DNA of 64,000 bases from contig NZ_FPIY01000002.1 in the NCBI RefSeq assembly GCF_900119145.1, positions 310,001-374,000 of the forward strand. The letters run 5' to 3'. The DNA comes from Cellulophaga fucicola. GTDB lineage: Bacteria; Bacteroidota; Bacteroidia; Flavobacteriales; Flavobacteriaceae. The first letter of the stretch is position 1. Each line of letters begins with the position of its first letter. Shown piece after piece: positions 23,875-44,401 of this stretch. A model generated the notes under the pieces. It had not been told where the DNA came from, made no database searches, and was given only the letters and a program-made list of their open reading frames with translations. Position numbers and translations under genes: made by a program.

Positions 23875-25614
23875 TTAATATTCAATTACTTCTATATTCA
23901 TTTCTTTTAACTGCGCCACCAATTTACTTGAAAAATTCATTGTATTGGTTGTTTTTAAGTTTGGCAAATACTTAATATCTTCAATAGACATTACATCATA
24001 CCTATCATCCTCTCCATCCCAAAGAGGTGTTAATTGTCCGTATATTTCATCTCCACCATCTGGCAATAAATCAACAATATCTACTAACAACTCTAAAGGT
24101 ATTGGTAGGTTTTTAAAATAATTAGCTACCTCTGGTATTATGTTATACCCTTCTTCTTCTATATCTATTTTACGACTTTGGTTGTTCTTTACAAAATTGC
24201 GCACATTAAACTTAGGAAATAAAACCTCATCTACATACATCAATTGATTCACAACCATTAATTTAAAGTTTAAATCTGCTTTAAACAAACATTTGCCCTT
24301 AGGTATTTCTGATAATTTATTTTGAACCTCCCTATTAAATAAAGCCTTGTTTTTCTGCTCTAACAACAGCACTTTATTTGGCACTTGTTTTAAAGTAACA
24401 GGTAAACTTTTAAATTGGTTCTTCCTTAAGTTTAACTCGCTTAAGTTGTTTAAATATGGTAAGTTCTGGGGTATTTCCATAAGCTGAGTATCTTCTAGAT
24501 CTAAAACTTGCAATTGTTTCATTTTACACAGCCAAGAAGGTAATTTCACTAATGGGTTATTACTTAACTTAAGTACTTTAAGCCTTTTAAGAGTAACCAA
24601 ACTTTCTGGTAATTCTGTTATTTCATTATTAGATAAATCTAACTCCTCTAGCTGATTTAAGTATTTTATTCTAGATGATATTCTTGATAAACCCGTATTA
24701 GATAGGTTTAAGGTTTTTAAGCCAGTAAGACTAACTAAAACTGACCAATGAGGATATTTATTACCTGAAAAATTTAAATATTTTAAGCTTTTAATTTGCT
24801 CTAATTTAGGAGGCAAACCTTCTATAGGCGTACTGTAATAATCGCCATCTCTAGACAATTTTAAAGAAACTAAATAAGGAAGTTTATGCAAGTTATTCAT
24901 TAAATCTGGCGGAATAAAACTAACATTATTTAAAGATAGCTCATTTAAGTTTTTTAACTTTAAAATTCCGGGATACAAATCTTTTATTGTCTGGTTAGCA
25001 ACTGCCAAACTTTTTAAATTGTGACAAGTAAAAATACGTTGTGGCAACTCAAAACCATAACCGTAATACAGCTTTTGTGTAGCAGGTCCAAAATCGTCCT
25101 CACTATTTAACTCCCAAATATCTGAAAATATTTTTCTTGAAGACCTCTTCAAAAAATGCATTACTTTTTTATGGTACTCATTTAGCTCCACTTTTTCGGC
25201 CAAAGGATTATCACTATTATGTCCGTCTAAGGTACAATACCCATAAATATGATCTCTCCCTAATCTGCCTAGCTCTTTCTTTAATTTTTTTCTTAAACCA
25301 AACCTATCTACTAATGCATCATGAGAATATCTTAATTCTTCTGTAGATCTTTTAAAAAGGGTTTTAGTCCCTGCTTTTAAAAATTTTTGAAACGTTAGCT
25401 CATCAAAAGCAACAGTCTGAATTAAGAACATGAACTCTCCTTTTTGTGCAGGATTATTTTTTGCTCTTGTAGGCGGCATAATTTGACAAATAGAATAAAC
25501 TTCTCCGCCTTTTAAATCATCTTCTTTAAAAAAGATATCTCCAAACGGAGATACCTCCAAAACTTCTCTTTGTTTAAAGTCCTGAAATAATGCTTCTAAA
25601 ATTAATTCTTCCAA
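23875..25614 (-). CDS. Leucine-rich repeat protein with a DUF6892-like C-terminal domain
   Basis: The 579-residue protein has no signal peptide. Residues ~1-190 form a unique N-terminal region. Residues ~195-415 contain about nine leucine-rich repeats (for example LEELDLSNNEITELPESL). The C-terminal ~150 residues carry LMYVDEVLFPKFNVRNFV and PLWDGEDDRYDVMSIED. This block recalls DUF6892, but from memory only. LRRs usually mediate protein binding. It is the last gene of a minus-strand run of closely spaced unknown genes (31-bp gap to the lipoprotein before it). Confidence 0.85.
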   Translation of the reverse strand: MEELILEALFQDFKQREVLEVSPFGDIFFKEDDLKGGEVYSICQIMPPTRAKNNPAQKGEFMFLIQTVAFDELTFQKFLKAGTKTLFKRSTEELRYSHDALVDRFGLRKKLKKELGRLGRDHIYGYCTLDGHNSDNPLAEKVELNEYHKKVMHFLKRSSRKIFSDIWELNSEDDFGPATQKLYYGYGFELPQRIFTCHNLKSLAVANQTIKDLYPGILKLKNLNELSLNNVSFIPPDLMNNLHKLPYLVSLKLSRDGDYYSTPIEGLPPKLEQIKSLKYLNFSGNKYPHWSVLVSLTGLKTLNLSNTGLSRISSRIKYLNQLEELDLSNNEITELPESLVTLKRLKVLKLSNNPLVKLPSWLCKMKQLQVLDLEDTQLMEIPQNLPYLNNLSELNLRKNQFKSLPVTLKQVPNKVLLLEQKNKALFNREVQNKLSEIPKGKCLFKADLNFKLMVVNQLMYVDEVLFPKFNVRNFVKNNQSRKIDIEEEGYNIIPEVANYFKNLPIPLELLVDIVDLLPDGGDEIYGQLTPLWDGEDDRYDVMSIEDIKYLPNLKTTNTMNFSSKLVAQLKEMNIEVIEY

Positions 25615-28133: not shown

Positions 28134-28637
28134 TTACCTCTCTTTTGTCTTAGTATCTAAAATTTGTAATAAAGTTGGCATTCTGTAATTACCGTGCATA
28201 GATTTTACCAACTTATAAGCCTTATCTAAACTTATACCAATAGCAGAGATGTAAAGTGGTTTTATACTATCTCCTCTTAAAAGAGGCTTGCTATTAGTTT
28301 TATTTAAATGAAAACTAGATTTTGCAACACCTACAACAGGAATCTTTTGCTCTAAACTATTATACAAATAACCTCCCAAACCTAGCTTACCATCATCATC
28401 TAGTAAAACATAACTATCTACTATTATTAACTCCACATCTTCTAAGTTATACTGTTTAAGCAAACTTATAATACAAGGTAATTCTCTTTTATAAAATGCA
28501 CCTGGCTCATAGTCCGGCACATCTTCAATAATTTCTTCCTTTATTTCAAGGACAGTATCATCTAACCAATTATTAAAGCTAACACCTACTGTTTTTGCTT
28601 TATTATCATAGTAATAAGTATCAAAGGCTAAAATCAT
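28134..28637 (-). CDS. Divergent endonuclease V-like protein
   Basis: The 167-residue protein carries the endonuclease V core. Asp6 lies in AFDTYYYD, Glu52 in the YEPGAFYKREL segment, and Asp74 in IIVDSYVLLDDDGK. The spacing of 46 and 22 residues is close to the metal-binding triad of known enzymes. GLGGYL, GVAKSSF and GNYRMP are also family phrases. It lacks the N-terminal ~35 residues of typical EndoV, and the late GH motif is replaced (IGISLDKA), so activity may be changed or lost. EndoV cuts next to deoxyinosine in DNA or inosine in RNA. It sits 4 bp after an AlkB-like gene, which suggests a shared nucleic-acid role. Confidence 0.8.
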   Translation of the reverse strand: MILAFDTYYYDNKAKTVGVSFNNWLDDTVLEIKEEIIEDVPDYEPGAFYKRELPCIISLLKQYNLEDVELIIVDSYVLLDDDGKLGLGGYLYNSLEQKIPVVGVAKSSFHLNKTNSKPLLRGDSIKPLYISAIGISLDKAYKLVKSMHGNYRMPTLLQILDTKTKER

Positions 28638-28641
28638 AATA

Positions 28642-29436
28642 TTAATTGTCTTTTTTTGGTTCTAATGTGTCTGCCATACTAAGGGTATAATTTAGTTTGG
28701 GATATAAGAAATTTACACCCTTATTCTCTTCTCCTCTTAGCTTAAAAAATTCTTTCTCTTGAGTTTCATTTGCCAATTCTACTATACTGCCATCTAAAAA
28801 ATAGGGAATATTATTTTTAAACTGAATATATGTTTTTGAAGTTCTAAAAGTAATCCCTAACCATTTACAATCTTCCTGACTCTCTTCTTTACTTGATGAT
28901 TCTTCTAGAATAATTTTATGCGAAAACTTTGCATTTGTTGCTGTTGAAAACAAGATAACAGAGTTGTGAGTTAGTTTTATTTCAGATTCTTCTTCAGTAT
29001 TTTTGTTCTTAATTTTTAGTGTTCTTATGCTTTGCTCTCCTAAATTTTTATAGCAAGAAAAAAGAGCAATATAAGAACCTTCTTTTAAGTCTAAAGCCTG
29101 ATCCGAGTGATACTTCATTTTTTTATAACTCTTACTGTACATCTCTATTAATGCATTATTAAAATGTAATGGAGCTGTAACTTTTAGATTACTACTTTCT
29201 ACTGTATTCTCTATTTGTTCTACAAGATTGTGATGAGTTGATGAAAACTGAAACGCAGGCTCTTTATAATTTGTTGTAGTTCTAACAATAGGAATTCCTT
29301 TATCATTTACACAAACCAAGTTATTGCCTAGCCTACCTTTGCCTGTAGCTATAAATGAAACTGACTTAGACAAACTATTGAACAAATTATTTTTAATAGG
29401 AAGTGTTATTTTATAAAAACCCAATTGATCTTTCAT
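28642..29436 (-). CDS. AlkB-like 2-oxoglutarate/Fe(II) dioxygenase (copy 2)
   Basis: The 264-residue protein shows the AlkB pattern: a LIEMYSKSYKKMKYHSD stretch with the HxD pair His110/Asp112, a distal His173 (FSHKIIL) and Arg198 in GITFRTSK. These match the iron ligands and the 2-oxoglutarate-binding Arg of the superfamily in order and spacing. The phrase is close to LINRYAPGAKLSLHQD of E. coli AlkB. Oxidative removal of alkyl groups or hydroxylation of bases is the family role; the substrate here is unknown. It lies between a second AlkB-like gene (8-bp gap) and the EndoV-like gene (4-bp gap). Confidence 0.72.
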   Translation of the reverse strand: MKDQLGFYKITLPIKNNLFNSLSKSVSFIATGKGRLGNNLVCVNDKGIPIVRTTTNYKEPAFQFSSTHHNLVEQIENTVESSNLKVTAPLHFNNALIEMYSKSYKKMKYHSDQALDLKEGSYIALFSCYKNLGEQSIRTLKIKNKNTEEESEIKLTHNSVILFSTATNAKFSHKIILEESSSKEESQEDCKWLGITFRTSKTYIQFKNNIPYFLDGSIVELANETQEKEFFKLRGEENKGVNFLYPKLNYTLSMADTLEPKKDN

Positions 29437-29444
29437 AATTTAAA

Positions 29445-30677
29445 CTAATAAATTGGTTTTTTATAGTCTCCAGAATTCATACTAAAGTGAACTTTACCAT
29501 AATCTACAACCGTTTCTAATTTGTTCTCCTTATAGTAAGAGTCTCTTAAATTATCCATTGTAGCATTCGTCATTTCTTCCAACTTTACCAATTTACCTTT
29601 CTCTTTTATATATGTCTCTTTGTTTACATATAAAGCTTCTAGATTAGAACAACGAATTACATACCCCATTCTTACCGGTATTTTATCTACATTTAATACA
29701 GAAGGTCTTATTTCATGGGTATACAATCTGTTTGTAGAAAGCGGAATTAAAAATACTGAATTTGGATACAACGTAACACTAAACTCTTTTTCTAAAGAGT
29801 CATTACTCACTGTTTTTTTTAATTTAAAATGAAGTCTAGTTAACCCGCTAGATTTCTTATAACACCAGTCGAACCTATCTGTTTTTGAAGGCTCTAAATT
29901 CTCAAAATTTACGTTATCGTAAAAGGTACAAAAGGCAATAAGCCCTTCTTTAGGCATATCTTTAGTTTTATCTGAGTGTGCACCAATTTTTGCTTTAACG
30001 TCTTTTGCATTCACCTCATCTTTCTTTTTATTTTCGTAAATCTGAGCTAAAACGTGATTCAGTTCTGTTTCCTTTTCAAAATCGAATTTAACGGCTTCAT
30101 TTAATGTATTTACTATAGCTGTATCTGTATTTCTAAAATTATCTGTTGGCCCAGTTAAATTAGTAGAACATCTTAACAAACGAAAATGAAATTGCTCCTT
30201 ATTACGTTCCTTTTCGTCCTTAACAACCTTAGTTAAGTATATTCCTTTTCTTAAGGCTTTGGTATCTTTATTACCCTCTGTTAAATACTGAAAAGTGTGC
30301 TCTGCTTTTATTTTTGAAAAATAATTTTCACCAGTAAAAAGTTCTCTATAATACACTCCAGAATTATGGATATTTATAGGAACCTGACCTAATTTTACTA
30401 TTTTAAAATTAGCTTTAATTAGCCCCTCATAATTAATAGAGAAATCGCTAATTACAAGAATACCGCGTTCTTCTTTTTCTATTTGTTTGATATCACCAAT
30501 TGCATAAATTCTAAGCTCAGAATTATCATTAGGAATTTCTAACATATTTTTTACAACTGTACCACAAAAATTATCTACTAGATACTGTAAATCACCTGAA
30601 GCATTATTTATATTAGATAAGTTTATTAAAATATTTTTAGTTGTTGCTATTCTGTTCTCAAAGTTTAATGTATTCAT
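29445..30677 (-). CDS. AlkB-like 2-oxoglutarate/Fe(II) dioxygenase (copy 1, extended)
   Basis: The 410-residue protein has the same signature as its neighbour in its C-terminal half: His234-x-Asp236 in IGAHSDKTKDMP, His321 in LYTHEIRPS, and Arg342 in GYVIRCSNLEAL. The N-terminal ~200 residues are an additional domain not seen in the shorter copy, and it contains NHVLAQIYENKK just before the HxD stretch. No signal peptide is present, so it acts in the cytoplasm. It is probably a distant paralogue of the 264-residue protein. Whether it is active as a dioxygenase is inferred only from the residues. Confidence 0.65.
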   Translation of the reverse strand: MNTLNFENRIATTKNILINLSNINNASGDLQYLVDNFCGTVVKNMLEIPNDNSELRIYAIGDIKQIEKEERGILVISDFSINYEGLIKANFKIVKLGQVPINIHNSGVYYRELFTGENYFSKIKAEHTFQYLTEGNKDTKALRKGIYLTKVVKDEKERNKEQFHFRLLRCSTNLTGPTDNFRNTDTAIVNTLNEAVKFDFEKETELNHVLAQIYENKKKDEVNAKDVKAKIGAHSDKTKDMPKEGLIAFCTFYDNVNFENLEPSKTDRFDWCYKKSSGLTRLHFKLKKTVSNDSLEKEFSVTLYPNSVFLIPLSTNRLYTHEIRPSVLNVDKIPVRMGYVIRCSNLEALYVNKETYIKEKGKLVKLEEMTNATMDNLRDSYYKENKLETVVDYGKVHFSMNSGDYKKPIY

Positions 30678-32046: not shown

Positions 32047-32667
32047 TTATAGATATACGATTCCTTCACTATTACCACTTTTTATGTATAAAAGTATATT
32101 AGCGATATGCGCATTGTGGTTAGTTTTATCGTTCCAATTATGTCTATGTACGTATAAAAACATATCTAACAGCTCTTTGTCCGAATCTTTAGGAATAATA
32201 AGTATATTACCACGTCTAGGTATAGATACAAATAATTCTTCTGACTCTAAAAAATCATGAGCCATACGCATCTGTGTATAACTAAGAGCTCTTTCATTAG
32301 AAAATCGAGTTCCATTTGAACTCAACACTTTATTATCAAATTCTTTTTCAAACTTAAATCCTTGTTCAAGATCGTCTAAGTTGTCGCTAGCTTCTTGATA
32401 TAAGTTTCTATTTCCAAAAAAATCTTTATGTTTCTTTGATAGATATACCAAACCATTTGGCGTTTCTACGGCATAAGATTTAACAACTAAAGGAATTTTA
32501 TCATCATCATTATCTTCAAGAACTTCTACATTATAGAGTGCTCCATTTTTAACACCTGGCCAACTTGCTGGTTGTAGTACAGGATAAAGTTTATATTCTC
32601 CATCTACAGCTTTTTGCACGTCTTGGTCTATTTCTGCTAAATATTGTTTTTTTTCTTGATCTGTCAT
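32047..32667 (-). CDS. Cytoplasmic protein of unknown function
   Basis: The 206-residue protein is hydrophilic with no signal peptide or membrane helix. A region near residue 150 (EELFVSIPRRGNILIIPKD) looks like two strands of a mixed alpha/beta fold and is faintly like DUF1444-type proteins, but not enough to name it. It is the first gene of the run going down to the EndoV-like gene, with a consensus -7 element TACATTTG at 32704-32697 on the minus strand, 30 bp ahead of the start codon. Confidence 0.7.
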   Translation of the reverse strand: MTDQEKKQYLAEIDQDVQKAVDGEYKLYPVLQPASWPGVKNGALYNVEVLEDNDDDKIPLVVKSYAVETPNGLVYLSKKHKDFFGNRNLYQEASDNLDDLEQGFKFEKEFDNKVLSSNGTRFSNERALSYTQMRMAHDFLESEELFVSIPRRGNILIIPKDSDKELLDMFLYVHRHNWNDKTNHNAHIANILLYIKSGNSEGIVYL

Positions 32668-32784: not shown

Positions 32785-33201
32785 CTACCAGTAAGTGCCC
32801 ACTAAAAACGTCATACGTATAAAAGCAATTACACTTTCTTCCGTCAAGACTAAGGGAGTTTCCAAGGTGGTAACTTCATCACCATCTACAAAAACCACAA
32901 ATAATCCGTCTTTAAAAGCTAGTATTACATTATCTATAGCCTCTTGTTCTACAGCTAAATCTTTATTTGCTAAGTCGCCAAAATCTACTTTACCTCTCTG
33001 GGCTTGGTCTTGTATTTCTGCTGGACTTAAAAAACCAACTACATTAACTTCTATTCTTTTTTTATTAAAAGCCTCTACTTGGTTTTTTACACAACCTACC
33101 AATAACTCTTGCAGGTTTTTTGGAGTAGTTTCTAGCGTTAATGGTATTTGTTTTACCTTTTTTTTACCTAGTCTTTTAAGTTGTAGTGTTAGTTGTGGCA
33201 T
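32785..33201 (-). CDS. Small conserved-looking partner of the DUF5724/DUF4132 protein
   Basis: The 138-residue soluble protein begins MPQLTLQLKRLGKKKVKQIPL and has mixed alpha/beta character with a hydrophobic end (FIRMTFLVGTYW). No family name is known to me. The gene follows the 1663-residue DUF5724/DUF4132 gene on the same strand after a 123-bp gap holding a hairpin-rich element. Co-occurrence with that protein suggests a partner, which is inference. A long frame on the opposite strand is a shadow and is not annotated. Confidence 0.7.
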   Translation of the reverse strand: MPQLTLQLKRLGKKKVKQIPLTLETTPKNLQELLVGCVKNQVEAFNKKRIEVNVVGFLSPAEIQDQAQRGKVDFGDLANKDLAVEQEAIDNVILAFKDGLFVVFVDGDEVTTLETPLVLTEESVIAFIRMTFLVGTYW

Positions 33202-33224
33202 ATGTGCATTTTGTTTTTTGGTGC

Positions 33225-33312
33225 GTTAGGGATTGGCGTGTAAAGCCCAAAGTGCGATAGCACGAGGACTTGCAACAAAAGCCCGCCCCACCTTAAGTGG
33301 GGAACGCCCTTA
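33225..33312 (-). repeat. GC-richer hairpin-bearing intergenic element
   Basis: This ~88-bp stretch is far richer in G and C than its surroundings. It contains two hairpins: GTGC-gata-GCAC (33252-33263) and CCCCAC-cttaa-GTGGGG (33286-33302). It begins GTTAGGGATTGG and ends ACGCCCTTA. It resembles the dispersed extragenic elements (...AGCCCG...GGGAACGCCC...) of flavobacterial genomes. I can see only one copy in this window. Confidence 0.6.
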
Positions 33313-33324
33313 TTATTTTATAAA

Positions 33325-36300
33325 TTAGCTATTTATTTGTGCTAAAATGGTTGGATCTTGTATTTTGTTGTCTTCTGATAAAAGTTTCATTTTAGAAATA
33401 ATTTCTGCTGATTTTGGATCGTCGTCTACAAAGGGTAAAAACATACGGCCTCTGTGCTGACTGTGAACCGGAATTATTGATAATTGCAAGCCGTTTTTAC
33501 TTACTTGTCCGCTTCCTAAATGTATACTATACTCGCCCAAAGTACCTGCTACCAATATGTGGCGCTCTTTAACCGTAATGTTTTTGAGTTTAAACAGCTG
33601 TGCAGACTCGGTTGCTAGAACAGCACGCATTTGCATTGTACTATGGCTAGCTTCTGGGTCTACACCACCTACGTGAGCAACACTTACCACTAGGTCTATG
33701 TCTCTCATAATTTCGCTAAAAACTACCGAAGGCACATCTTTTAAAGGTATTGGCTTGTAATTTTCTAGTGAATAAAACACAATATGTTCTAAGGTAGGTG
33801 CTTCTATATCTGCTGGCGAAAACCAATCTGCCATTGCGTACATAGTTGCCATAAATCCTAGTTTATGATATACTTTTTGCAATCCGTCTTCATGGCTAAC
33901 CGTCCAGCCACGACCGCGTAATAAGGCTACCGTTTTTTGTGGCTGTATTTGGTGTCCTTGGTAACGCTCTGACTTTGCGCCAAGCTCTAGCTCGTCTTTA
34001 GTAACCAAGTACAGTTCTCTAAAAACTTGTTTAAATGGTTGTATTAAGCGCTCTGCAAATAGGTGTTTTTGGTACAAATCCCACTGTACGGCTTTGTATA
34101 AGTGAGATGGATGTGCAATGACCAAAACATCGTCTTCTTGTAAATGATGTTTTTTACCTTGTGTGTCTGTTAGTACACCGTCTGCATAAAAACCAGAAAT
34201 TTCTTTTTCTGGAGAAAACAACACCAATTTGCTAAGCATAACCTTTACAATTGGGTGCTGCATTATTTTGTGTATCTCTGCTGCGGTAAACTTATCTTCG
34301 TTTACCATAGCATTTTCTAGAGATAAACGAGTTCTACTGTATTGTTTAGATAAATAAGATTTGCCTTCTTTTAAAGCTAATACTTGCTTGTCTTTTTTAT
34401 ACTTAGCAGGTATAGACTTTTGCTTTTTATTGCCTTTGGTAACTATAATGTCTGTTTTACCTTCATCTGTAATTACCAATTCTATAACTGCATCTTCAAA
34501 GGTGAGTACGGCATTTTCCATTATAGCTAATGTTGCTTTACTCTCCATAGCCCAGCTAAAGCGTACGCGGTCCTGGAAACCTGCGTTCCTAGACAGGTTG
34601 TCTAACGCAATTTCTACAGCATTTTTCTCGCTCTCTTGACGTTGTGCACCAAATTGCTTACTTTCTTTTAAAAACTGTTGCAACAAGTTGTAGCGCTTTA
34701 ATAAATCTTTTTCTGGAATGGTTTTACTAAGCGGAATTAACCCTAGTGCACGTACATAGTCTTTATCTCTTTTCTCTGTAATTTTCTTTAAGGTTTCGGT
34801 AATTTTTACCTCACCCAACATTACACTAGAGTATAATTTTACTTGTCTGTGCCCATTACCATCTGTAATATATTTGGCAGCATCATGCAAAATTTTCCAA
34901 TTGGCTTTACCTATACTTTTGTATACTTTATTAAACCAATCTATATCTATTGCACCAATTGCAAAGTCGGACTTTGGAATATTAGAATACCTAGAAATTA
35001 TAGTTTCCTTTTCGCCACTCATATAATCTGATGCATGCGCTTGAAACCACCAAACTGCATCTTCTAACTTCTCTAACCCTAGATATTCGCCAACAAAACC
35101 TGCCCATTGCGTTGCGTAGCAAGCCAGTTCTACCAATCGTTTTTTAGGAATTTTAGTTTCATCTGCAAGTGCCGCAAAATCTGAATAACTTTCTGTTTCT
35201 TTAAGTACACTCTTTTTTAAAATAGCACTAAACTTAGATTTTTTAGTATCGCCATAATAACTATAACCACGCTCAAAAGTATCTTTACCCATACGTTGTA
35301 ATACTTTAAAAACATAGTCTACACCCTCTACCTTACTAAGACTAGAAATATATTCTGATGCATCTGTAGCTAAATCTCCACGTTCTAATTCTACCGAAAG
35401 AATATTTGTTTTTAAATCGTTAAAAACACCTTTAGGAACTAAGCTTACATCTAAATTACCATTGCGTATTCTGTAGTTTTGTGCACCATCTAAAATAGAC
35501 ATTAACTCTGATGAGTTTAGTGCTTGAAAAAGAAGATCGTCTTTAGTAATTAGATTTTTTTGATATAATACCAAAGAAATATCTATGAATGGCAATACCA
35601 AACCTCTATCTATTACTCTCTTCTCTGTAATGTCTTTTATATCTGTTATTGGTTTTGGATACCCAATATATTGCGCTCCTAAAAACATTTTTATATCCCA
35701 AAATTTCTTTAACTGTGCTTCATCTGCAAACTGTTTTAAATCTTCTTCATTTATTATGCAAACTAAACCATCAATAACATTAATCCAGTGATAATCATCG
35801 TACCTATAACTTCTATTATAAGAAAATTTAGTTGTTTTTAGTTTCTCTGGAAAGTTAGCAATGACATCTTCCCATAAATCTAATTTAAAGCTAAATACAG
35901 CTGCTCTATCTGCATTAACATTATACAAACGTTTTAAAATTGTTGTGTACTTGGTATTAGTACTGTAGTAACTACGATCTGTAGTGTCTAATTTTATCTG
36001 AGTTAAATCTGGAACATATTGTTTAGTATACTCTTCTAACTTTTCATAATTACCATAAGGAGCATTAATTCTGTTTATATAACGAATAGCAAAATACATT
36101 TCAAAATCGTTAAGATTACTCTCTTCATACCATTTTATCCATAGATCTGCTAAGGGTAAATTTTGTAGATGTACTTCTGGAGTAACTATTTCTTGAATTC
36201 TTTTTATGTCATGAATACCATTCGCTATTAAGGTTGTACCTGTTTCACCATCATAAGCCTCAAATTGGTATTCGTGATTTCTATGCTCGTGCACAAGTGT

Positions 36301-38316
36301 TATTAGGTTATTAATTGCAGTTACTATTTTACGTTCATCTACAAAATCTCTAAACTTAAAACTCCCTGTGGTAATACCTAGCTTATTAAAAAAACCTTTA
36401 TTATCATTAAACCTAACTTGTGGCGTATATAATGGAGATAAGTTAGCGTAATCTACCTCTCCAAAACCATTACTGTAAGAATACCCAATTTTTGTTTTAC
36501 AAAACTTCTCTAAAAATACACTCTCGTTTTTAGTAAATTTTGGACGTTCCTTGTATAAGGTAACCTGCTCTTTTATAAATTCTGGATATTGTTCTACGTC
36601 TTGTACTAATGTTAGTATTTCTAGAGCTGCTAAACGTTGGTCTACATTTTTAGCTGTTATTAAATTTTGTGTACTTGTTTTAAATGTAGTTTCTGGCTGT
36701 TTAATTATCAACTTCATTAATCCAGATCGTAGACTTTTATTTTTTCTAGTAAAAAGATCTTCTACAACATCTAAATCTTCTTGGTGCAAAGGCATATGAT
36801 GAAAAACCTGTATACCCGTAGACATTACAGACTCACTCCTATCTTTAATAGCTTGGTGTGCTAATTTTCTACGCCAAGAATTCTCTGATAAAATTAATTG
36901 AGTTGGTTTTGTGTTTCCGTAGTTATACCCATAAGAATATGTAAAATGATTTGGAAACACTTTCCTCATATATCTTTCTCTTACCCCAGTTGGCAATTTT
37001 GCTAATTGATCTGATAGCAATAGTAACTGCTCTTCCGATGCTTTTTCTATAATTAAATCATAGAAATAATTTGGTGTAATTGTAAAACTATGCCAAGAGA
37101 AAACCATACCCTCATAGCATTTACCATCTTTTGGCAAAGATTCTGCAACTTTTTGTATTTGTACAAAAAGCTTATTATCTATATTTATAGCAGGTAAACT
37201 TAAGCTTAGCCAATAATCTAAAGCTGGGTTATTACCCAATTCTTTTTTATAATACTCTACAATAGATTCGTGTGTTCGTTGGGTCTGATTAACAAAGTAA
37301 AGTCCTAGTAATTTTTTCTCTAATTTATCTGTTGCATATACCAGTTCTAATGCCTTTTTGTTTGCAACATCTACATCTACTAAACCAATTGCCCAAAGAC
37401 CTACATAAACCTCTAAATTATCTTTGCTAGTAAGTAATACGTCTATATCTTTTAGGTTTAAAATATAAGCCTCACTCAATTCTAAAACTCTTCTTATTGT
37501 TGCCTTTTTAGGTGCTTCCCAACCAAAACCAAACCAAGTATCTACAGCTCTAACTACACTACTAAAGCGTGTTAAATCGTTCTCTAGAATAACTCCAATC
37601 ATATATTTTAATGCACCGTGACTGGTAGAATCTAAGGACTCTAAAATAGTTTGTCTTAATCCTTCTTGCCGTTGCGCTGCCAATAATAACTTAGAAACTA
37701 ATTCCCAATTCTCTTCTTTCTGAGTTAACAACAACCCTTTTATAATATCTCTACTTACACCTCCAATTTCATCTTCAGCTTGTATAATGTCTTTAACAAC
37801 ATCTATAACTAACTCTGTTTTATATTGTAATACCGTACCAAAAAAATAACTGTTTTTGTGATCAAAATATGTACTATATTGAAACTGCTCTACTAAAGAC
37901 AACGCTCCAAAACCTTTACGACTAAAAGCCAAAAAAGTTCTAAAGTAATCTAATTTATTGTGTAAATGATTTGTGTTTACTTTTGCCCTAAAAGCTCTTC
38001 TGCTATAGCCATTCTGATATGGTAAATAATCGAATAAGCTCCACATAGCAGCTAAATATGGAGCTTGTACTTCTCCGTACAATAAAACCCCTAAACGAAA
38101 ACCTTCATCTGTTGTCCAAGGGTTAACCGTAACTGCATCATCAAAAGCATTAGAAAAAATAGTTATTGTTTCGTGATTCATTCGTGGATTAAGCAAATTT
38201 GCTAATATTTGCCCTAGTACCTCATATGGATACGAAAACCCCTCTAAATCTTCATCTTTTAATGCTGCCTTTTGGTGCTTTTTTATATACTCTTGTGCTT
38301 TTTCAAATGGAATCAT
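33325..38316 (-). CDS. Giant DUF5724/DUF4132 (MolR-like) protein
   Basis: The 1663-residue protein has no signal peptide. The N-terminal ~1270 residues are a long helical-repeat region matching the DUF5724 type. The C-terminal ~370 residues match DUF4132, with phrases such as RLIQPFKQVFRELYLVTKDE, LLRGRGWTVS and DIEAPTLEHIVFYSLE. DUF4132 proteins include E. coli MolR/YehI, found beside MoxR-type AAA ATPase, von Willebrand A and SWIM-domain genes in proposed conflict or regulatory clusters. None of those partners lies in this window, only a 138-residue companion, so this is either a reduced or a distributed version. Cytoplasmic; biochemical role unknown. Confidence 0.85.
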   Translation of the reverse strand: MIPFEKAQEYIKKHQKAALKDEDLEGFSYPYEVLGQILANLLNPRMNHETITIFSNAFDDAVTVNPWTTDEGFRLGVLLYGEVQAPYLAAMWSLFDYLPYQNGYSRRAFRAKVNTNHLHNKLDYFRTFLAFSRKGFGALSLVEQFQYSTYFDHKNSYFFGTVLQYKTELVIDVVKDIIQAEDEIGGVSRDIIKGLLLTQKEENWELVSKLLLAAQRQEGLRQTILESLDSTSHGALKYMIGVILENDLTRFSSVVRAVDTWFGFGWEAPKKATIRRVLELSEAYILNLKDIDVLLTSKDNLEVYVGLWAIGLVDVDVANKKALELVYATDKLEKKLLGLYFVNQTQRTHESIVEYYKKELGNNPALDYWLSLSLPAINIDNKLFVQIQKVAESLPKDGKCYEGMVFSWHSFTITPNYFYDLIIEKASEEQLLLLSDQLAKLPTGVRERYMRKVFPNHFTYSYGYNYGNTKPTQLILSENSWRRKLAHQAIKDRSESVMSTGIQVFHHMPLHQEDLDVVEDLFTRKNKSLRSGLMKLIIKQPETTFKTSTQNLITAKNVDQRLAALEILTLVQDVEQYPEFIKEQVTLYKERPKFTKNESVFLEKFCKTKIGYSYSNGFGEVDYANLSPLYTPQVRFNDNKGFFNKLGITTGSFKFRDFVDERKIVTAINNLITLVHEHRNHEYQFEAYDGETGTTLIANGIHDIKRIQEIVTPEVHLQNLPLADLWIKWYEESNLNDFEMYFAIRYINRINAPYGNYEKLEEYTKQYVPDLTQIKLDTTDRSYYSTNTKYTTILKRLYNVNADRAAVFSFKLDLWEDVIANFPEKLKTTKFSYNRSYRYDDYHWINVIDGLVCIINEEDLKQFADEAQLKKFWDIKMFLGAQYIGYPKPITDIKDITEKRVIDRGLVLPFIDISLVLYQKNLITKDDLLFQALNSSELMSILDGAQNYRIRNGNLDVSLVPKGVFNDLKTNILSVELERGDLATDASEYISSLSKVEGVDYVFKVLQRMGKDTFERGYSYYGDTKKSKFSAILKKSVLKETESYSDFAALADETKIPKKRLVELACYATQWAGFVGEYLGLEKLEDAVWWFQAHASDYMSGEKETIISRYSNIPKSDFAIGAIDIDWFNKVYKSIGKANWKILHDAAKYITDGNGHRQVKLYSSVMLGEVKITETLKKITEKRDKDYVRALGLIPLSKTIPEKDLLKRYNLLQQFLKESKQFGAQRQESEKNAVEIALDNLSRNAGFQDRVRFSWAMESKATLAIMENAVLTFEDAVIELVITDEGKTDIIVTKGNKKQKSIPAKYKKDKQVLALKEGKSYLSKQYSRTRLSLENAMVNEDKFTAAEIHKIMQHPIVKVMLSKLVLFSPEKEISGFYADGVLTDTQGKKHHLQEDDVLVIAHPSHLYKAVQWDLYQKHLFAERLIQPFKQVFRELYLVTKDELELGAKSERYQGHQIQPQKTVALLRGRGWTVSHEDGLQKVYHKLGFMATMYAMADWFSPADIEAPTLEHIVFYSLENYKPIPLKDVPSVVFSEIMRDIDLVVSVAHVGGVDPEASHSTMQMRAVLATESAQLFKLKNITVKERHILVAGTLGEYSIHLGSGQVSKNGLQLSIIPVHSQHRGRMFLPFVDDDPKSAEIISKMKLLSEDNKIQDPTILAQINS

Positions 38317-38343: not shown

Positions 38344-39105
38344 TTATTTTATTAGTCCGTTTTTGTAGGCTCCTAATTTAAAATCTATTTGACTTTTAAA
38401 AACCTCTTTAAGATCTTCTTTTGGCTGTAGTGTAAGTCCTAGTTGAAAATGTTTATTGTGATCATATCCTATATATTCTTGAGCAACAAAACGCACCTGT
38501 GCTTCATTAGTAGCGCTATTATAATCTAGCACAGTAAAACTGTGTGTTAAAAATTGCATTGATGCTGCTTCACTTAAAAAATAAAGGAATGCTTTATAAG
38601 TTTTAATTTCTGAAATAGTAATATTATTTAACTGTGCCAACTCTTTAATCCAAGAATCATTTTTTAATGCCTTTAAAAGAGATTCTTTTGTAAAAATATC
38701 TTGCAGTGTAACATTTTGCATTGTACGCAAATCTAGTGTTATTACCCCTAAAGAGTTCCCCATAGGACCACACGCTTCTCTACTATTAACACCATATTCG
38801 TAACTATAAAAAGGTCCAACAAGTGAAAGCGGATTGTAATACGAATAATAGAAAACCTCGCATTTATTAGACTCTAGTTTATTTTTAGTAAAAAAGTTGA
38901 TACTGTCAGTTTTTGCATCATACAATACAGCTCCCATAGCTGTTGCTTTCTTTGTTGTTATTTTAAAATTATTTAATTCAAATAGCACAGAATCTACTTG
39001 TGCACTTATTTTCTGCGCACTAAGAGAAACTACACTAAATAGTATACCAATTACAACTAATGAGCACCTTTTTTTCCTAATTTTTAAAGTGTGTATTGTA
39101 TGCAT
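38344..39105 (-). CDS. Exported protein of unknown function
   Basis: The 253-residue protein has a signal peptide of unusual length, with a basic n-region (MHTIHTLKIRKKRC) and hydrophobic core LVVIGILFSVVSLSA-Q (cleavage near residue 31). The mature part has repeated aromatic patches (YYSYYNPLSLVGPFYSYEYG) and EYIGYDHNKHFQLGLTLQP. The family is not recognised. It is 27 bp upstream of the DUF5724/DUF4132 gene on the same strand, and divergent from the tandem LRR genes. Confidence 0.7.
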   Translation of the reverse strand: MHTIHTLKIRKKRCSLVVIGILFSVVSLSAQKISAQVDSVLFELNNFKITTKKATAMGAVLYDAKTDSINFFTKNKLESNKCEVFYYSYYNPLSLVGPFYSYEYGVNSREACGPMGNSLGVITLDLRTMQNVTLQDIFTKESLLKALKNDSWIKELAQLNNITISEIKTYKAFLYFLSEAASMQFLTHSFTVLDYNSATNEAQVRFVAQEYIGYDHNKHFQLGLTLQPKEDLKEVFKSQIDFKLGAYKNGLIK

Positions 39106-39187
39106 ATCTTATAAACAGAAACCTTTTTATCTTATTTTATACAGGCGTAAATTCTTTTGCAATTTAAAATGAATGCAGAACTCTTTT

Positions 39188-39231
39188 ATCCCTGAATTAA
39201 GGGATATTTTAGCTTCACTGAATACAGTGAA
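39188..39231 (+). repeat. Two adjacent palindromes in the leader of the first LRR gene
   Basis: ATCCCT-gaatta-AGGGAT (39188-39205) is followed 8 bp later by TTCACTG-aata-CAGTGAA (39214-39231), both perfect in their arms. They share a CTGAAT core. They lie 53-96 bp before the chosen start codon, the right place for a dimeric regulator or for mRNA hairpins. Confidence 0.5.
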
Positions 39232-39283
39232 AAACATCATTGTTTTTTTTGAGAAATTTGTAAAACCAAAATTAAACGGCCTT

Positions 39284-41797
39284 ATGATACTTGCTAAACA
39301 CGAACTTGGTTTCAATTTTTATGAAGACGAAACATCTTTTGAAAAAATTAAAGGATGTGACAATTACCCAGAAGATTTTTATTACGAGATTTTTGTACTT
39401 GCTAAATCTACTAAAAACAAGCAGATTAGAACCGAATGTGCCAATATCATAAAAAAACAGGCACCAGAAGCTTTACAACTCGCCTTTAAGAGTCGAAAAA
39501 AAATAACGACAATACAAGATTCTCAATCTTTTAACAAGAAACTGATTGCTGTATTAGAGTACGGCGTACTTTCAGAAGACTTAGACCTTTGTAAACTATA
39601 CACACTTGTTTGTAAGCGATTAACGCTTTCGCTTGAATATAGAAGTAAAGAAGTTATTGAACTTCTCATAGAAACACCACGTCTTTTAAGTCAGTTTAAT
39701 GGTGTTAAAGAATTAACAATTAGCACCTCTAGACAGGAAGAAGGTTTTAGAAACGTTGTAAACAACATAACGCAACTTTCTTCATTAGAGAAACTTGAGC
39801 TTGACATTGATTATAAATACATACCAGAAGAACTAGAACGATTAGTTAACTTAAAAGAGTTTATACTAGCAGCACCTAACTTAGTATGGGTTCCCGTAGG
39901 AATAACCAAGTTAAAAGCACTTAAAAAGTTGGAGTTTAGAGGAGATTTTCGTTATGGTGATGACGATCCTAACCCTAACATCGTTAACTTTATTTGGCTT
40001 ACAGAACTTACAAGTTTAAAGCATTTAAGAATAGGTTCTTTTACAGTGCAAGATCTCTCTAATGTTGAGCTTCCGGCAAGTTTAAAAAAATTAGAGCTTT
40101 TTAGGTTAGAAAATCTAACCGCTTTACCCGAAACACTTGGTCACTTACCAAAACTAAAAACATTAAGGCTAAGTGGTATAAGGGAGCTAGAACACTTTCC
40201 TGCATCTGTTAGTGAATTTAAAACCTTAGAGGTTTTAGAAGCTATTCATTTATCTAAATTAAAAAAAGTTCCTGCTGCTTTTATTTTTGGACCAAATATT
40301 AAACGTTTACTAGGTTTGTATACAGAGTTTATGCCTTATGGAGTAACACCTGTAACTAAGCTAAAAAGAATCGTTTTTACCAATCCAGAGCTTCTTAGTT
40401 TTGTATTAGATAATGCCTTGTCTTTTACTAATTTAAAAGAGATAGAAATTAATTGTGATGCACCACAAAGAAGAAGTGAGCATACGCTTTCTGCATTTAA
40501 AAAACTTAAAAACCTTAAGTATAAGTTAGCACATCATTTAGAATGGGTTTTAGAGGATATTCACGAATGTAAAAAGCTAGAAGACGTTTTTATTTATGGT
40601 ATATATAATGGAGCTGATGCTAAAATAACAAACGCTGATGTTGCTAATTTTCCTCAGTCATTTTCTAGAATAGAGTATTTGCAAACCTTAAAAGTGCACA
40701 GTGCAAAAGCACTAGTTTTAAATACAGATTATTTACCTATAAAGACAGACAGTCTTACCATTACAGGTATAAAAGTCATTGAGCCAGGTATTGAAGATTT
40801 TGAGGTAACTAATCTAAAGGTAATAGATACACCTATTACCGCATTACAAAAGTTTTATTCAGTAATACGTGCTAAAAAAATAAAGTTAGACGATGTAAAT
40901 AGTGCTAAAAATGAGACTTTAGATTTTGATAATTTTAAAGACCCTGAAAGCATTAAGGATTTTATATTTAATAGTAATGTAAAAGGCTTAGATAAGGCAT
41001 TAAAAGCACTTTGTAATTTACAAACACTAACCATTGATTTTAATGTAGATAATGCCGAACAAAACAATGGTTTAACCGCTTATACGCATCATAATTTAAA
41101 GAACTTGACGATTAAAAATTTTAATGGTGACACTAGTGTTATTAAATTATTATTAGAGCATACGCCTCATCTAGAGTTTTTAGAAATTTACGATTGTGTA
41201 GGCCTTGTAGATCTTCCTAAGGTTACTTTAAATAAACTAAAAACGCTAAAATTATTTTATAGCGATGATATACAGTCTATAGAAAACGTAACAGTGCCCA
41301 ACATAGAACTTTTTAAAGTTTTATCGTGTGACAATTTTGGTTACAATGCTATGGTTACGGCATCGCATTGGAAAACGCTTAAGTTTCTTTGGTTAGAACA
41401 CATTAGTAAAGATCTTGAAACCTACCCAGAGACCATTGCAGACTTAAATTTAGACACCTTTTTTATTGATGGATTTTTAACTAAAAGACAAATACCAAAA
41501 TGGATAGGCAGAATGAAATCCTTACGAGTTCTAGGAATAGAACAGTTTTATTATTGTCCATTACCGGAAGAATTAGCCGAATTAACCCAATTAAAAATAA
41601 TGAGTATCAGAGGGTGTGATTTTACAGAACAAGTATCTGATAAATTTAAGAATCTGAATTTAGAGGATTTAATTTACAGGTATTCAAAATTTAATGGAAA
41701 CAATATGAAATCCTCTAAATTTTACGCATTAGCTAAAAATAAAATCTTAAAAGAGGATTTTGATAACAGATATGAAAAATATGATCTGTACTGCTAA
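39284..41797 (+). CDS. Large LRR protein, tandem copy 1
   Basis: I chose the ATG at 39284 because the 837-residue product then matches its tandem neighbour in length from Met to the conserved NYPEDFYYEI block (36 residues in both). The frame is open further up, to 39173, but that part contains two palindromes and has no counterpart. The N-terminal ~110 residues hold the shared domain (CANIIKKQAPEALQLAFKS), then irregular leucine-rich repeats to the C-terminus. No signal peptide is present, so it is probably cytoplasmic. Function unknown; protein-protein recognition is typical for LRRs. The flanking LRR and DUF4132 genes suggest one accessory module. Confidence 0.85.
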   Translation: MILAKHELGFNFYEDETSFEKIKGCDNYPEDFYYEIFVLAKSTKNKQIRTECANIIKKQAPEALQLAFKSRKKITTIQDSQSFNKKLIAVLEYGVLSEDLDLCKLYTLVCKRLTLSLEYRSKEVIELLIETPRLLSQFNGVKELTISTSRQEEGFRNVVNNITQLSSLEKLELDIDYKYIPEELERLVNLKEFILAAPNLVWVPVGITKLKALKKLEFRGDFRYGDDDPNPNIVNFIWLTELTSLKHLRIGSFTVQDLSNVELPASLKKLELFRLENLTALPETLGHLPKLKTLRLSGIRELEHFPASVSEFKTLEVLEAIHLSKLKKVPAAFIFGPNIKRLLGLYTEFMPYGVTPVTKLKRIVFTNPELLSFVLDNALSFTNLKEIEINCDAPQRRSEHTLSAFKKLKNLKYKLAHHLEWVLEDIHECKKLEDVFIYGIYNGADAKITNADVANFPQSFSRIEYLQTLKVHSAKALVLNTDYLPIKTDSLTITGIKVIEPGIEDFEVTNLKVIDTPITALQKFYSVIRAKKIKLDDVNSAKNETLDFDNFKDPESIKDFIFNSNVKGLDKALKALCNLQTLTIDFNVDNAEQNNGLTAYTHHNLKNLTIKNFNGDTSVIKLLLEHTPHLEFLEIYDCVGLVDLPKVTLNKLKTLKLFYSDDIQSIENVTVPNIELFKVLSCDNFGYNAMVTASHWKTLKFLWLEHISKDLETYPETIADLNLDTFFIDGFLTKRQIPKWIGRMKSLRVLGIEQFYYCPLPEELAELTQLKIMSIRGCDFTEQVSDKFKNLNLEDLIYRYSKFNGNNMKSSKFYALAKNKILKEDFDNRYEKYDLYC

Positions 41798-41875: not shown

Positions 41876-44401
41876 ATGACAAAACCAACAGAAGTCCCTG
41901 AATTCACCTATTATAAAATGGATGAATATTATGAAGATATTAAAAAGTGTAAAAACTTTCCAGAAGATTTTTACTATGAAATTTTTACGATTGCAAAAGC
42001 AACCTCAGATAAAAAAAATAGAGCAGAGTGTGCTAACATTATAAAAAAACAAGCCCCAGAAGCTTTGCAACTAGCCTTTAAAAGCCGAAAAAAAATTACA
42101 CAAAAAGGAAGAAACGCAGCTAGAATGATTTCCTTTTTAGAATACGGGTTGCTATCTAAAGACTTAGACCTTCTTAAATTATATGATCTAATGACGAGAA
42201 AGAATAGAAAACTGGGATTTTTTAGGTTTTCGGTAGATTTTTTAGATCGCTTGTTAGAACATCCACATATATTAAGACGATTTAATGGCGTAAAAAGTTT
42301 AGAAATCCATTTAAAAGGACAAGGCAATAAATATGATAGTATTCTTAATGAGATATCAAAATTAACGTCGTTAGAAGAAATAGATCTCGAGGGAGAGTTT
42401 GAGCAACTACCAGAGGATTTTGGTAATTTATCAAAATTAAAAGAATTAAAGCTTGTTGCGCCTTGTTTAAAAAGGTTTCCAAGTACAATGTCTCAGTTAA
42501 CATCCTTAAAAAAAATACGTATAGAAGGTGATTATTGGATTGGAAAAATTATTCCTAATATGAATCTAACCGATTTTAATTGGCTTACAAAACTTACTAA
42601 ATTAAAAGTGTTCAAACTACGTTATGTAGGCGTGCAAGACCTATCTCAAGTCGTGTTTCCTGCATCCTTAAAACGTATAGAATTGTTTTACTTAAATGAA
42701 TTAACAACATTACCTAAAGATGTTAGTCATTTAAAGCAACTAAAAAAGTTTCAGATTTTATCTAAAAGCATAGCTAGCTTACCAAGTGGTTTTGAAGATT
42801 TACCAAAATTAGAGCTTTTTGAACTTAACGCTCCTAAGATAGATTCCATATCATCTACCTTATTTTTTGGCGATGCGTCTAGATGTTTTGGAGATACACC
42901 TAGACCTAAATTAGAAACAAAAATTACATATAGCGAAACTAATATATCAACAATGACAGAAGTAAGTCTGCGAGAATATATAGAAATAGATTCACCCAAA
43001 CTACTTCATTTTGTGTTAGATAATGCGTCGTTTTTCCCTAATTTAAAGACGATAACTGTAGATTGTGAAGCACCAGAAACCCCACATAAAACATCGTTAG
43101 CAGCATTTAACAATTTAACAACGCTTAACTACAAACTAGAGCATAAACTAGATTGGCTTTTAGAAGGGATTGAGCAATGTACAAATCTTAAAAATGTAGA
43201 ATTATACAGGTTTCAAGAGTCAGGTACTAGAGATATAAAATTAGCTGTTAGAATTTTTCCTAATGTGTTTTCAAAAATAGCACAGTTAGAAAACCTGACG
43301 ATTAAAAATGCTAGTGCTTTAGTTGTAGACACTGACCATTTACCTAAGCATATTACTAATTTAACTATTTCTGAAATTAAAGGCATAAAAGCAGGAACAG
43401 AACCTTTTGATGTGTTTAATGTGGAAATTAAAGCCACACCAATTCTTAATTTACAGGAATTTTATGCAGTAATTAGTGCGGCTAAATTTAATCTTGGACA
43501 TAGAAATAATGATGTCAATAATGTATTAGATTTTGAAAACTTTAGACATCCAGAAAAAATTGAATCGTTTGATTTTACCAGTGATGTGAGTCAGTTAGAT
43601 AGCTTACTTAAAAACTTCATAAATTTAAAAGAGCTTACCATTACGTTTAAAAAAAATAAGCCAGAACATAACAATGCATTAACTGCTTTTAAACACACCA
43701 ATTTAAAAGTATTAAGAATTGATGATTATAACGGAACTACTGAAGCTTTAGAACGTTTATTAACACACACACCAAACCTTGAATTTTTAGGGATATTTGA
43801 AGCCAAAGGTTTTGATGCTTTTCCTGCTGTAAGCTTGCCTCAGCTTAAAAAGTTAAGAATGCAGAGTGTCGCTCTTAAAACCATAGACAACCTTAAAGTG
43901 GAAACTATAGAAGCCATAAAACTAATACATTGTGATCATATTAGTGATGAAAGTATCGAAGTGATATCGCGTTGGAATTCTTTAAAACACCTTTGGTTTG
44001 AAGGCTTAGATGAAAATGGAGGCACATACCCTGAATCGATTTCTGAATTAAATTTAGAAACACTTTTTATCAGAGCACATCATAAAGAAGAAAAAATCCC
44101 TACTTGGATTGCTAATCTAAAAAATCTACGTGTTTTAGGAATAAACAATTTTAAACAAGTTGTTTTACCTGTTGAATTAGCCACATTAACACAGCTTGAA
44201 GTATTAAGTATTAGTGGATGTGAATTTTCAGAACAAGTATCTGAAGACTTTAGAACCCTTAACCTACAAAAATTGGTGTATTGGACCTCTAAATTTAATG
44301 GTAGTAATATGAAATCTGAACTCTATGAGCCATTGGAGAATAAGTTGGTGTCTCAACGTAATTTTGATAATGAAGATAGTGAAGCGCCTTTTAGGGTCTA
44401 A
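41876..44401 (+). CDS. Large LRR protein, tandem copy 2
   Basis: The 841-residue protein is a paralogue of the preceding gene. The N-terminal domain has the same NFPEDFYYEIFTIAKA and CANIIKKQAPEALQLAFKSRKKI blocks, and the repeats continue to a matching end (LEVLSISGCEFSEQVSEDF versus LKIMSIRGCDFTEQVSDKF). It lies 78 bp behind copy 1 and probably arose by tandem duplication with later divergence of the repeats. No signal peptide or membrane helix. No second domain, such as a nuclease or ATPase, is visible, so effector activity is not suggested by the sequence. Confidence 0.85.
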   Translation: MTKPTEVPEFTYYKMDEYYEDIKKCKNFPEDFYYEIFTIAKATSDKKNRAECANIIKKQAPEALQLAFKSRKKITQKGRNAARMISFLEYGLLSKDLDLLKLYDLMTRKNRKLGFFRFSVDFLDRLLEHPHILRRFNGVKSLEIHLKGQGNKYDSILNEISKLTSLEEIDLEGEFEQLPEDFGNLSKLKELKLVAPCLKRFPSTMSQLTSLKKIRIEGDYWIGKIIPNMNLTDFNWLTKLTKLKVFKLRYVGVQDLSQVVFPASLKRIELFYLNELTTLPKDVSHLKQLKKFQILSKSIASLPSGFEDLPKLELFELNAPKIDSISSTLFFGDASRCFGDTPRPKLETKITYSETNISTMTEVSLREYIEIDSPKLLHFVLDNASFFPNLKTITVDCEAPETPHKTSLAAFNNLTTLNYKLEHKLDWLLEGIEQCTNLKNVELYRFQESGTRDIKLAVRIFPNVFSKIAQLENLTIKNASALVVDTDHLPKHITNLTISEIKGIKAGTEPFDVFNVEIKATPILNLQEFYAVISAAKFNLGHRNNDVNNVLDFENFRHPEKIESFDFTSDVSQLDSLLKNFINLKELTITFKKNKPEHNNALTAFKHTNLKVLRIDDYNGTTEALERLLTHTPNLEFLGIFEAKGFDAFPAVSLPQLKKLRMQSVALKTIDNLKVETIEAIKLIHCDHISDESIEVISRWNSLKHLWFEGLDENGGTYPESISELNLETLFIRAHHKEEKIPTWIANLKNLRVLGINNFKQVVLPVELATLTQLEVLSISGCEFSEQVSEDFRTLNLQKLVYWTSKFNGSNMKSELYEPLENKLVSQRNFDNEDSEAPFRV

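Follow-up and report, generated by a model that had tools for sequence, protein, structure and literature searches.

Prokaryotic systems of the ubiquitin-like protein (Ubl)-E1-E2 type include CBASS and Bil. In Escherichia coli, the DUF4132 protein YehI is encoded in the yehI-yehL-yehM-yehP-yehQ locus together with MoxR, DUF5682, VWA, and SWIM proteins. For Deinococcus radiodurans, a two-gene operon consisting of a small gene and a DUF4132 gene has already been published (DR_A0165-DR_A0166, SEP068184 and a DUF4132 protein). According to passages of PMC8533742, DRA0165, which is putatively operonic with DRA0166, is among the targets of DdrO, with a site at -83, and mitomycin C raises DRA0166 in the wild type but not in the irrE mutant. 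Passages of PMC9650054 describe the small protein as restricted to Deinococcus, with a predicted MoaD/SAMP1-like structure; deletion of DR_A0165 raised antioxidant measures, and the protein binds Trx1. Here, a 64,000-nucleotide stretch of the Cellulophaga fucicola genome (assembly GCF_900119145.1, contig NZ_FPIY01000002.1, positions 310,001 to 374,000; below, the window) was analyzed, in which a giant DUF5724/DUF4132 gene is accompanied by a small gene for a predicted Ubl. The D. radiodurans genes represent the same pair, and their large protein shares all three Pfam domains of the giant protein. The view of this pair as ubiquitin-like seems to be new, being absent from the literature found as judged by titles, abstract openings, and passages.

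The reading that we favor, with a probability of roughly 60%, is that the two genes encode a ubiquitin-like pair with Ubl-to-Cys chemistry in relatives whose Ubl ends in Gly-Gly (GG) and with a non-covalent relationship in the branch that includes the window. It is based on computed evidence, namely, the pairing of the genes, the predicted fold of the small protein, the association between the Ubl tail and a Cys of the DUF7737 domain, and purifying selection. The features concerned are as follows.

33325..38316, minus strand: giant gene, an open reading frame of 1663 amino acids (aa)
residues 60-1256 of the giant protein: DUF5724 (Pfam E 5e-298)
residues 1296-1470 of the giant protein: DUF4132 (Pfam E 3.5e-47)
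33337..33639, minus strand: DUF7737, residues 1560-1660 of the giant protein (Pfam E 1.5e-32)
about 33478-33480: Ser1613 of this DUF7737, at the position occupied by Cys in GG-paired relatives
32785..33201, minus strand: small gene, 138 aa, predicted ubiquitin-like beta-grasp with a helical insert
C-terminus of the small protein: FIRMTFLVGTYW, tail GTYW, without Gly-Gly

All three domains of the giant protein score above the Pfam gathering score, and the small gene is located 123 bases downstream of the giant gene on the same minus strand. The first-pass annotation had named a giant DUF5724/DUF4132 protein with a 138-aa companion; both reading frames and these Pfam domains were indeed found, and it had overlooked DUF7737 and the fold of the small protein. 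The latter has no match in Pfam (E 0.001), NCBIfam or PADLOC (E 0.1). The C. fucicola genome (3.92 Mb, completeness 100) contains a single DUF4132.

A collection of species genomes was scanned with the giant protein by short peptide patterns, which gave at least 80 loci; 80 listed loci from Bacteroidota, Bacillota, Acidobacteria, and others were analyzed with flanks of up to 10 kb, less near contig ends (loci, genomes, and contigs are numbered L, G, and C below). A homologue of the 138-aa protein was found on the same strand within 2.5 kb of the giant gene in 73 of the 80 loci, upstream of it in 55 and downstream in 18; thus, the companion does go with the giant protein, as had been proposed, and the pairing persists despite the flipped gene order. 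In four Bacillota loci, the called frames of the pair overlap by 7-29 bases. In five unpaired loci (L032, L062, L067, L071, and L076), the giant gene starts right at the end of the available DNA or no more than 250 bases from it. In L057, the giant gene is in two pieces and the small gene lies 69 bases ahead of the first one, and in L092, represented by a 210-aa fragment of the giant protein, no small protein was found. At L025 (15730-17883), the Ubl gene is succeeded by another relative of the giant gene, partial and diverged (30% identity).

Co-occurrence was also seen at the level of genomes. Among 296 genomes of the window's order, DUF5724 exceeded the cut-off in 13, all of which contain the Ubl (13/13). 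Three further genomes have it: G201, where a full-length Ubl gene adjoins a giant gene of which only the first 82 and the last 68 residues are left, in frame (L103, 9492-10493); G221, where it stands beside a short DUF4132 gene; and G088, with a partial match of 54 residues. The weak, below-cut-off DUF5724 match of G271 was rejected, being by eye a repeat-rich 1133-aa protein and no member of the family; no Ubl was matched in G271 either. Of 291 genomes belonging to the order of G360, 33 have DUF7737, 33 the Ubl, and 32 both (DUF7737 without the Ubl in G854, the Ubl without a DUF7737 match in G791), the Ubl profile, unlike the Pfam DUF7737 model, including rows from several of the searched genomes. 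The G791 Ubl (L219, 4283-4792) has the tail LAGGLW. The 138-aa protein is, therefore, a conserved partner of the giant protein. Both genes show apparent purifying selection, with ratios of nonsynonymous to synonymous substitution rates (dN/dS) of 0.075-0.126 for the small gene and 0.074-0.207 for the giant gene (four pairs, some with dS > 1). The most similar listed locus, L017 of Cellulophaga sp. 20_2_10, encodes a giant protein with 93% identity.

As for the small protein, it is predicted to have a ubiquitin/MoaD-like beta-grasp fold. Its AlphaFold model (mean confidence score pLDDT 80, weak in the insert and tail) shows two strands, a long helix, two more helices, and further strands, which is the beta-grasp order with a helical insert. 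The top Foldseek match was the H. pylori molybdopterin-converting factor chain (E 0.037). Structural re-alignment with VIA placed a U11 snRNP chain at the top (Z 8.1), listed human molybdopterin synthase 5mpo_B (Z 7.2, 80 aligned), yeast Urm1 (Z 6.6), many ubiquitins (Z about 6), and SAMP1 (Z 6.0), and also retrieved PI3K-alpha and SOSEKI, Z values below 8 being such as may reflect a common structural arrangement. Four of the ten similar PDB entries listed in a passage of PMC9650054 for DR_A0165 (5MPO, 1WGK, 6JBZ, and 1VJK) were also among the matches here. Six columns, including Gly135 near the C-terminus, are invariant in 48 aligned small proteins, and a profile built from non-GG members alone retrieves 32 GG Ubls (best E 8.5e-30). 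Because its tail, GTYW, lacks Gly-Gly, the window Ubl is filed as beta-grasp-like and not as a modifier or sulfur carrier.

The Ubl tail and one position of DUF7737 vary together. For this comparison, 141 DUF7737 rows were tabulated and each was assigned the Ubl closest to it on the same strand within its stretch, at a distance reaching several kb in L161, L163, L172, L182, L200, and L057 and with tandem copies sharing one Ubl. When the nearest Ubl was GG-tailed (35 rows), Cys was present in 35/35 within the motif [YF]LC[IV]; when it was not (86 rows), 85 had another residue at this position (S, A, N, T, P, H, Y, V, or M). Most non-GG tails end in Trp (71/86), and a few of the 86 (LLFI, ATVN, YFYL) resemble damaged or misread reading frame ends. 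The 20 rows with no Ubl in the stretch comprised 11 with Cys, 8 with another residue (including Acetobacter L126), and 1 gap. For all 11 Cys rows, the genome or record contains a GG Ubl at another place: in seven cases this Ubl was fetched, and for G929 (two loci), G777, and a Nonomuraea plasmid it is known from their other loci. In G998, one of the seven, the Ubl and the giant gene lie at the ends of two contigs (L218 and L184), probably due to an assembly break. Seven genomes (G778, G829, G866, G816, G903, G929, and G923) contain both types, GG with Cys and non-GG without it.

The same position stands out when rows are grouped by Ubl tail, 4 of the 141 rows being dropped as too short or gapped. 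Of the 39 columns without variation among the 35 GG-paired proteins, that of the Cys is retained in 1 of 84 non-GG proteins, and the one with the next lowest retention in 35 of 84. The GG types include short DUF4132 relatives and Deinococcus (Deinococcus plasmids among them), and the Cys position is invariant across those of Bacteroidota, Pseudomonadota, Actinomycetota, and Deinococcota and variable in the non-GG branch. In G221, three consecutive genes encode a 129-aa Ubl with the tail LVGG, a DUF4132-DUF7737 protein of 855 aa, and a member of the ThiF family. In both L182 and L172, three short DUF4132-DUF7737 genes stand in tandem, accompanied by one GG Ubl gene in the former and by two in the latter. 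The window, with GTYW and Ser1613, has neither Gly-Gly nor Cys, whereas the D. radiodurans Ubl ends in AGG and its partner has the DUF7737 Cys.

These observations suggest the following scheme. In the GG relatives, an E1 of the ThiF/MoeB type, adjacent in two loci and otherwise perhaps supplied by the cell, would adenylate the Ubl tail, and the Ubl would then be handed to the conserved DUF7737 Cys, forming a thioester en route to a target or acting as a sulfur carrier. In the window branch, where Gly-Gly and Cys are gone, the Ubl most probably serves the giant protein as a permanently attached, non-covalent subunit or as a regulator; since both ends have apparently been lost while both genes stay conserved, the simplest interpretation is a complex without a covalent bond.

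A more specific version of this scheme holds that DUF7737 is an acceptor that is E2-like or forms a thioester in some other way, that the GG Ubl and DUF4132-DUF7737 protein, with or without ThiF, constitute an undescribed bacterial conjugation system linked to DNA damage at least in Deinococcus, and that the window represents a pseudo-conjugation branch which lost tail and Cys together and kept the Ubl as a fixed subunit. We regard it as tentative and short of even odds. The model of the last 483 residues of the giant protein (pLDDT 86) shows a helix, strands, and helices in DUF7737. It yielded no Foldseek match at E 0.001 (one 483-residue model, single domains being barely probed), and the best VIA score was Z 7.8 on a 66-residue helical stretch. 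The E2 chain 4jqu (Ubc7) ranked 48th against this model (Z 4.5, root-mean-square deviation 4.0, 88 aligned). A DUF7737 profile search of PDB sequences was empty, and hhalign of DUF7737 with three bacterial E2 fragments gave a probability of 0.2% over 14 aligned columns, with Cys on Cys. A possible E2 homology of DUF7737, at which the order of elements and a look-alike of the E2 motif hint, found no statistical support.

Several findings weigh against the favored reading. Support for the Ubl fold is modest, with a best Foldseek E of 0.037 and Z of at most 7.2 for MoaD, Urm1, and ubiquitin. One protein, that of L181, combines Cys with a non-GG tail (LVGV), and Acetobacter L126 encodes a short DUF4132-DUF7737 protein with Ser, for which no Ubl was found. 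A ThiF gene adjoins the pair in no more than 2 of 43 Cys loci, L104 and L166 (one phmmer query), and the sole ThiF-family match of the window genome is on contig C8, not beside the pair. According to a passage of PMC9650054, co-immunoprecipitation with DR_A0165 yielded 157 proteins common to the N- and C-tagged versions; since a C-terminal tag should block Gly-Gly chemistry, these data do not support conjugation. Finally, a quick tree of 94 of the 137 rows, obtained after removal of near copies, needs two changes for Cys and two for GG; L126 accounts for one of the Cys changes and L181 for one of the GG changes, so the tail/Cys association rests essentially on one joint change. Fisher values, which ignore kinship, overstate the association for this reason. 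The three long Deinococcus proteins (GG, Cys) are placed next to the remaining 50 long-group rows (support 91). With the tree rooted at its midpoint, the direction of the joint change as a loss is only inferred.

Two other explanations concern the same tail and Cys. The GG Ubls could be MoaD/ThiS-like carriers that give sulfur to the DUF7737 Cys for RNA or cofactor modification, the window pair being a derivative without sulfur chemistry. The MoaD-type chains and Urm1 among the structural neighbors and the ThiF-family E1 at two loci fit such a relay, and the Cys could bear a persulfide; no sulfur-transfer gene was recognized among the inspected neighbor clusters, most of which are unannotated and which were covered by no dedicated rhodanese or desulfurase search. 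This relay seems unlikely. It is also conceivable that the window Ubl is still conjugated once a protease trims its tail to the conserved Gly. Ubl precursors bearing C-terminal extensions are known, and Gly135 is the invariant residue at which trimming would have to end, but the second Gly is missing from the window tail and from the listed non-GG tails, and the receiving Cys is absent, so that trimming appears very improbable.

The least probable explanation is that offered by the first-pass annotation, which saw a reduced conflict or regulatory system with leucine-rich repeat (LRR) proteins in place of MoxR/VWA partners. Three LRR genes are indeed present in the window (by domain search), as is an exported-looking protein (by eye), and the yeh-type MoxR/VWA/SWIM set is absent beside the giant gene, as had been noted. 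These neighboring genes are as follows.

38344..39105, minus strand: exported-looking protein (by eye), 253 aa, directly upstream of the giant gene
39173-41797 and 41876-44401, plus strand: two large LRR genes (LRRa/LRRb), divergent from the giant gene
23875-25614: third LRR protein, with a C-terminal DUF6892 domain

Close LRRa/LRRb homologues (at least 70% identity) flank the pair in 8 of the 80 listed loci (one in Cellulophaga, one in Formosa, and six in Winogradskyella), but none was found in the remaining 72, including the flanks of L017 with its 93% identical giant protein; more distant LRR matches occur in a few other listed loci. Of the expected conserved neighborhood of LRR and 138-aa genes, only the 138-aa part held on tabulation. 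The LRR genes are lineage-specific neighbors outside the conserved pair, and recognition by LRR proteins in place of the partners is not borne out. The idea of a reduced form fared no better: phmmer queries (E 1e-5) with E. coli YehL, YehM, YehP, and YehQ found no counterpart in any fetched DUF7737 locus besides that of E. coli itself, YehI shows neither DUF7737 nor DUF5724, and ten window proteins had no match in the PADLOC defense library. A generic MoxR query matched two loci, L052 and L094 (E about 1e-14). The partners were not found as a set elsewhere in the genome either. It contains five MoxR-family (AAA_3) matches, three of them strong (contigs C16, C8, and C14), a fourth (C16) barely above the cut-off, and a fifth (C12) below it, which by eye is a RarA-like AAA protein and lies about 9 kb outside the window. 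No SWIM and no DUF5682 match was detected in the genome, the E. coli control being positive for both. The Ubl and giant genes thus look like a two-gene module of their own rather than a stripped system.

Other genes around the pair are variable. The 253-aa exported-looking protein has a homologue only in L017 among the listed loci and is, therefore, placed outside the conserved pair. Other recurrent neighbor clusters each occur in a subset of the loci; apart from the pair, the largest is present in 15 of them. In a Pfam tally covering 122 of 142 listed neighbors at 39 of the 80 loci (top 25 of 141 families), AAA domains were found in five neighbors, four of which have Clp-type domains. An SOS link from neighbors was rejected, UmuC or S24 proteins at four loci (L120, L121, L172, and L030) being too few. 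Phage records searched by tblastn with the short DUF4132 protein of L104 gave no match. Positions 28134-30677 of the window encode an Endonuclease V-like protein and an AlkB-like 2-oxoglutarate (2OG) oxygenase (Pfam), plus a 410-aa protein that is 2OG-like by eye; this trio reappears in Winogradskyella L023, L028, and L036 on the strand opposite to the pair. Directly downstream of the Ubl gene (32047-32667) lies a member of a 206-aa family without Pfam match, which is multi-copy at some loci (four copies each in L027 and L029, two in L020).

In the Deinococcus locus L127, an exact DdrO site (radiation/desiccation response motif, RDRM) is present at 4429-4448, starting 82 bases before the annotated small gene (0/200 shuffles), and trxC is located directly upstream of the pair; on these two grounds L127 was identified as the DRA0165-DRA0166 operon. 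The exact match contradicts the statement in a passage of PMC9650054 that no DdrO motif was found at DR_A0165. DNA-damage induction of the pair is taken from the literature on Deinococcus.

DUF4132, DUF5724, and DUF7737 are named as domains of unknown function, and full-text search found three papers with DUF4132 and none with the latter two (subscription papers being mostly outside its reach and bioRxiv not being searched as such); they are now tied to a predicted ubiquitin-like protein. A Cys and a Gly-Gly that are retained or missing together provide a testable hypothesis for an orphan giant protein in the tractable D. radiodurans. If the favored ubiquitin-like reading is true, the window branch would be a natural case of a Ubl pair that dropped covalent chemistry and yet stayed conserved.

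Compared with known systems, the giant protein of the window shares DUF4132 with E. coli YehI and differs from it in having DUF7737 and DUF5724; the Ubl profile search of the yeh locus, which also covered YehK, encoded next to YehI, gave only a chance-level match (E 0.14). The GG relatives resemble the Ubl-E1-E2 operons described in passages of PMC1779556 in their small beta-grasp protein with a conserved C-terminal Gly, E1-like enzyme, and Cys-bearing acceptor. The same passages report E2-like domains that lack the Cys in prokaryotic operons of this type. The pair differs from these operons in that its large partner is a DUF4132-DUF7737 protein, the E1 is adjacent in 2 of 43 Cys loci, and homology to E2 is without statistical support.

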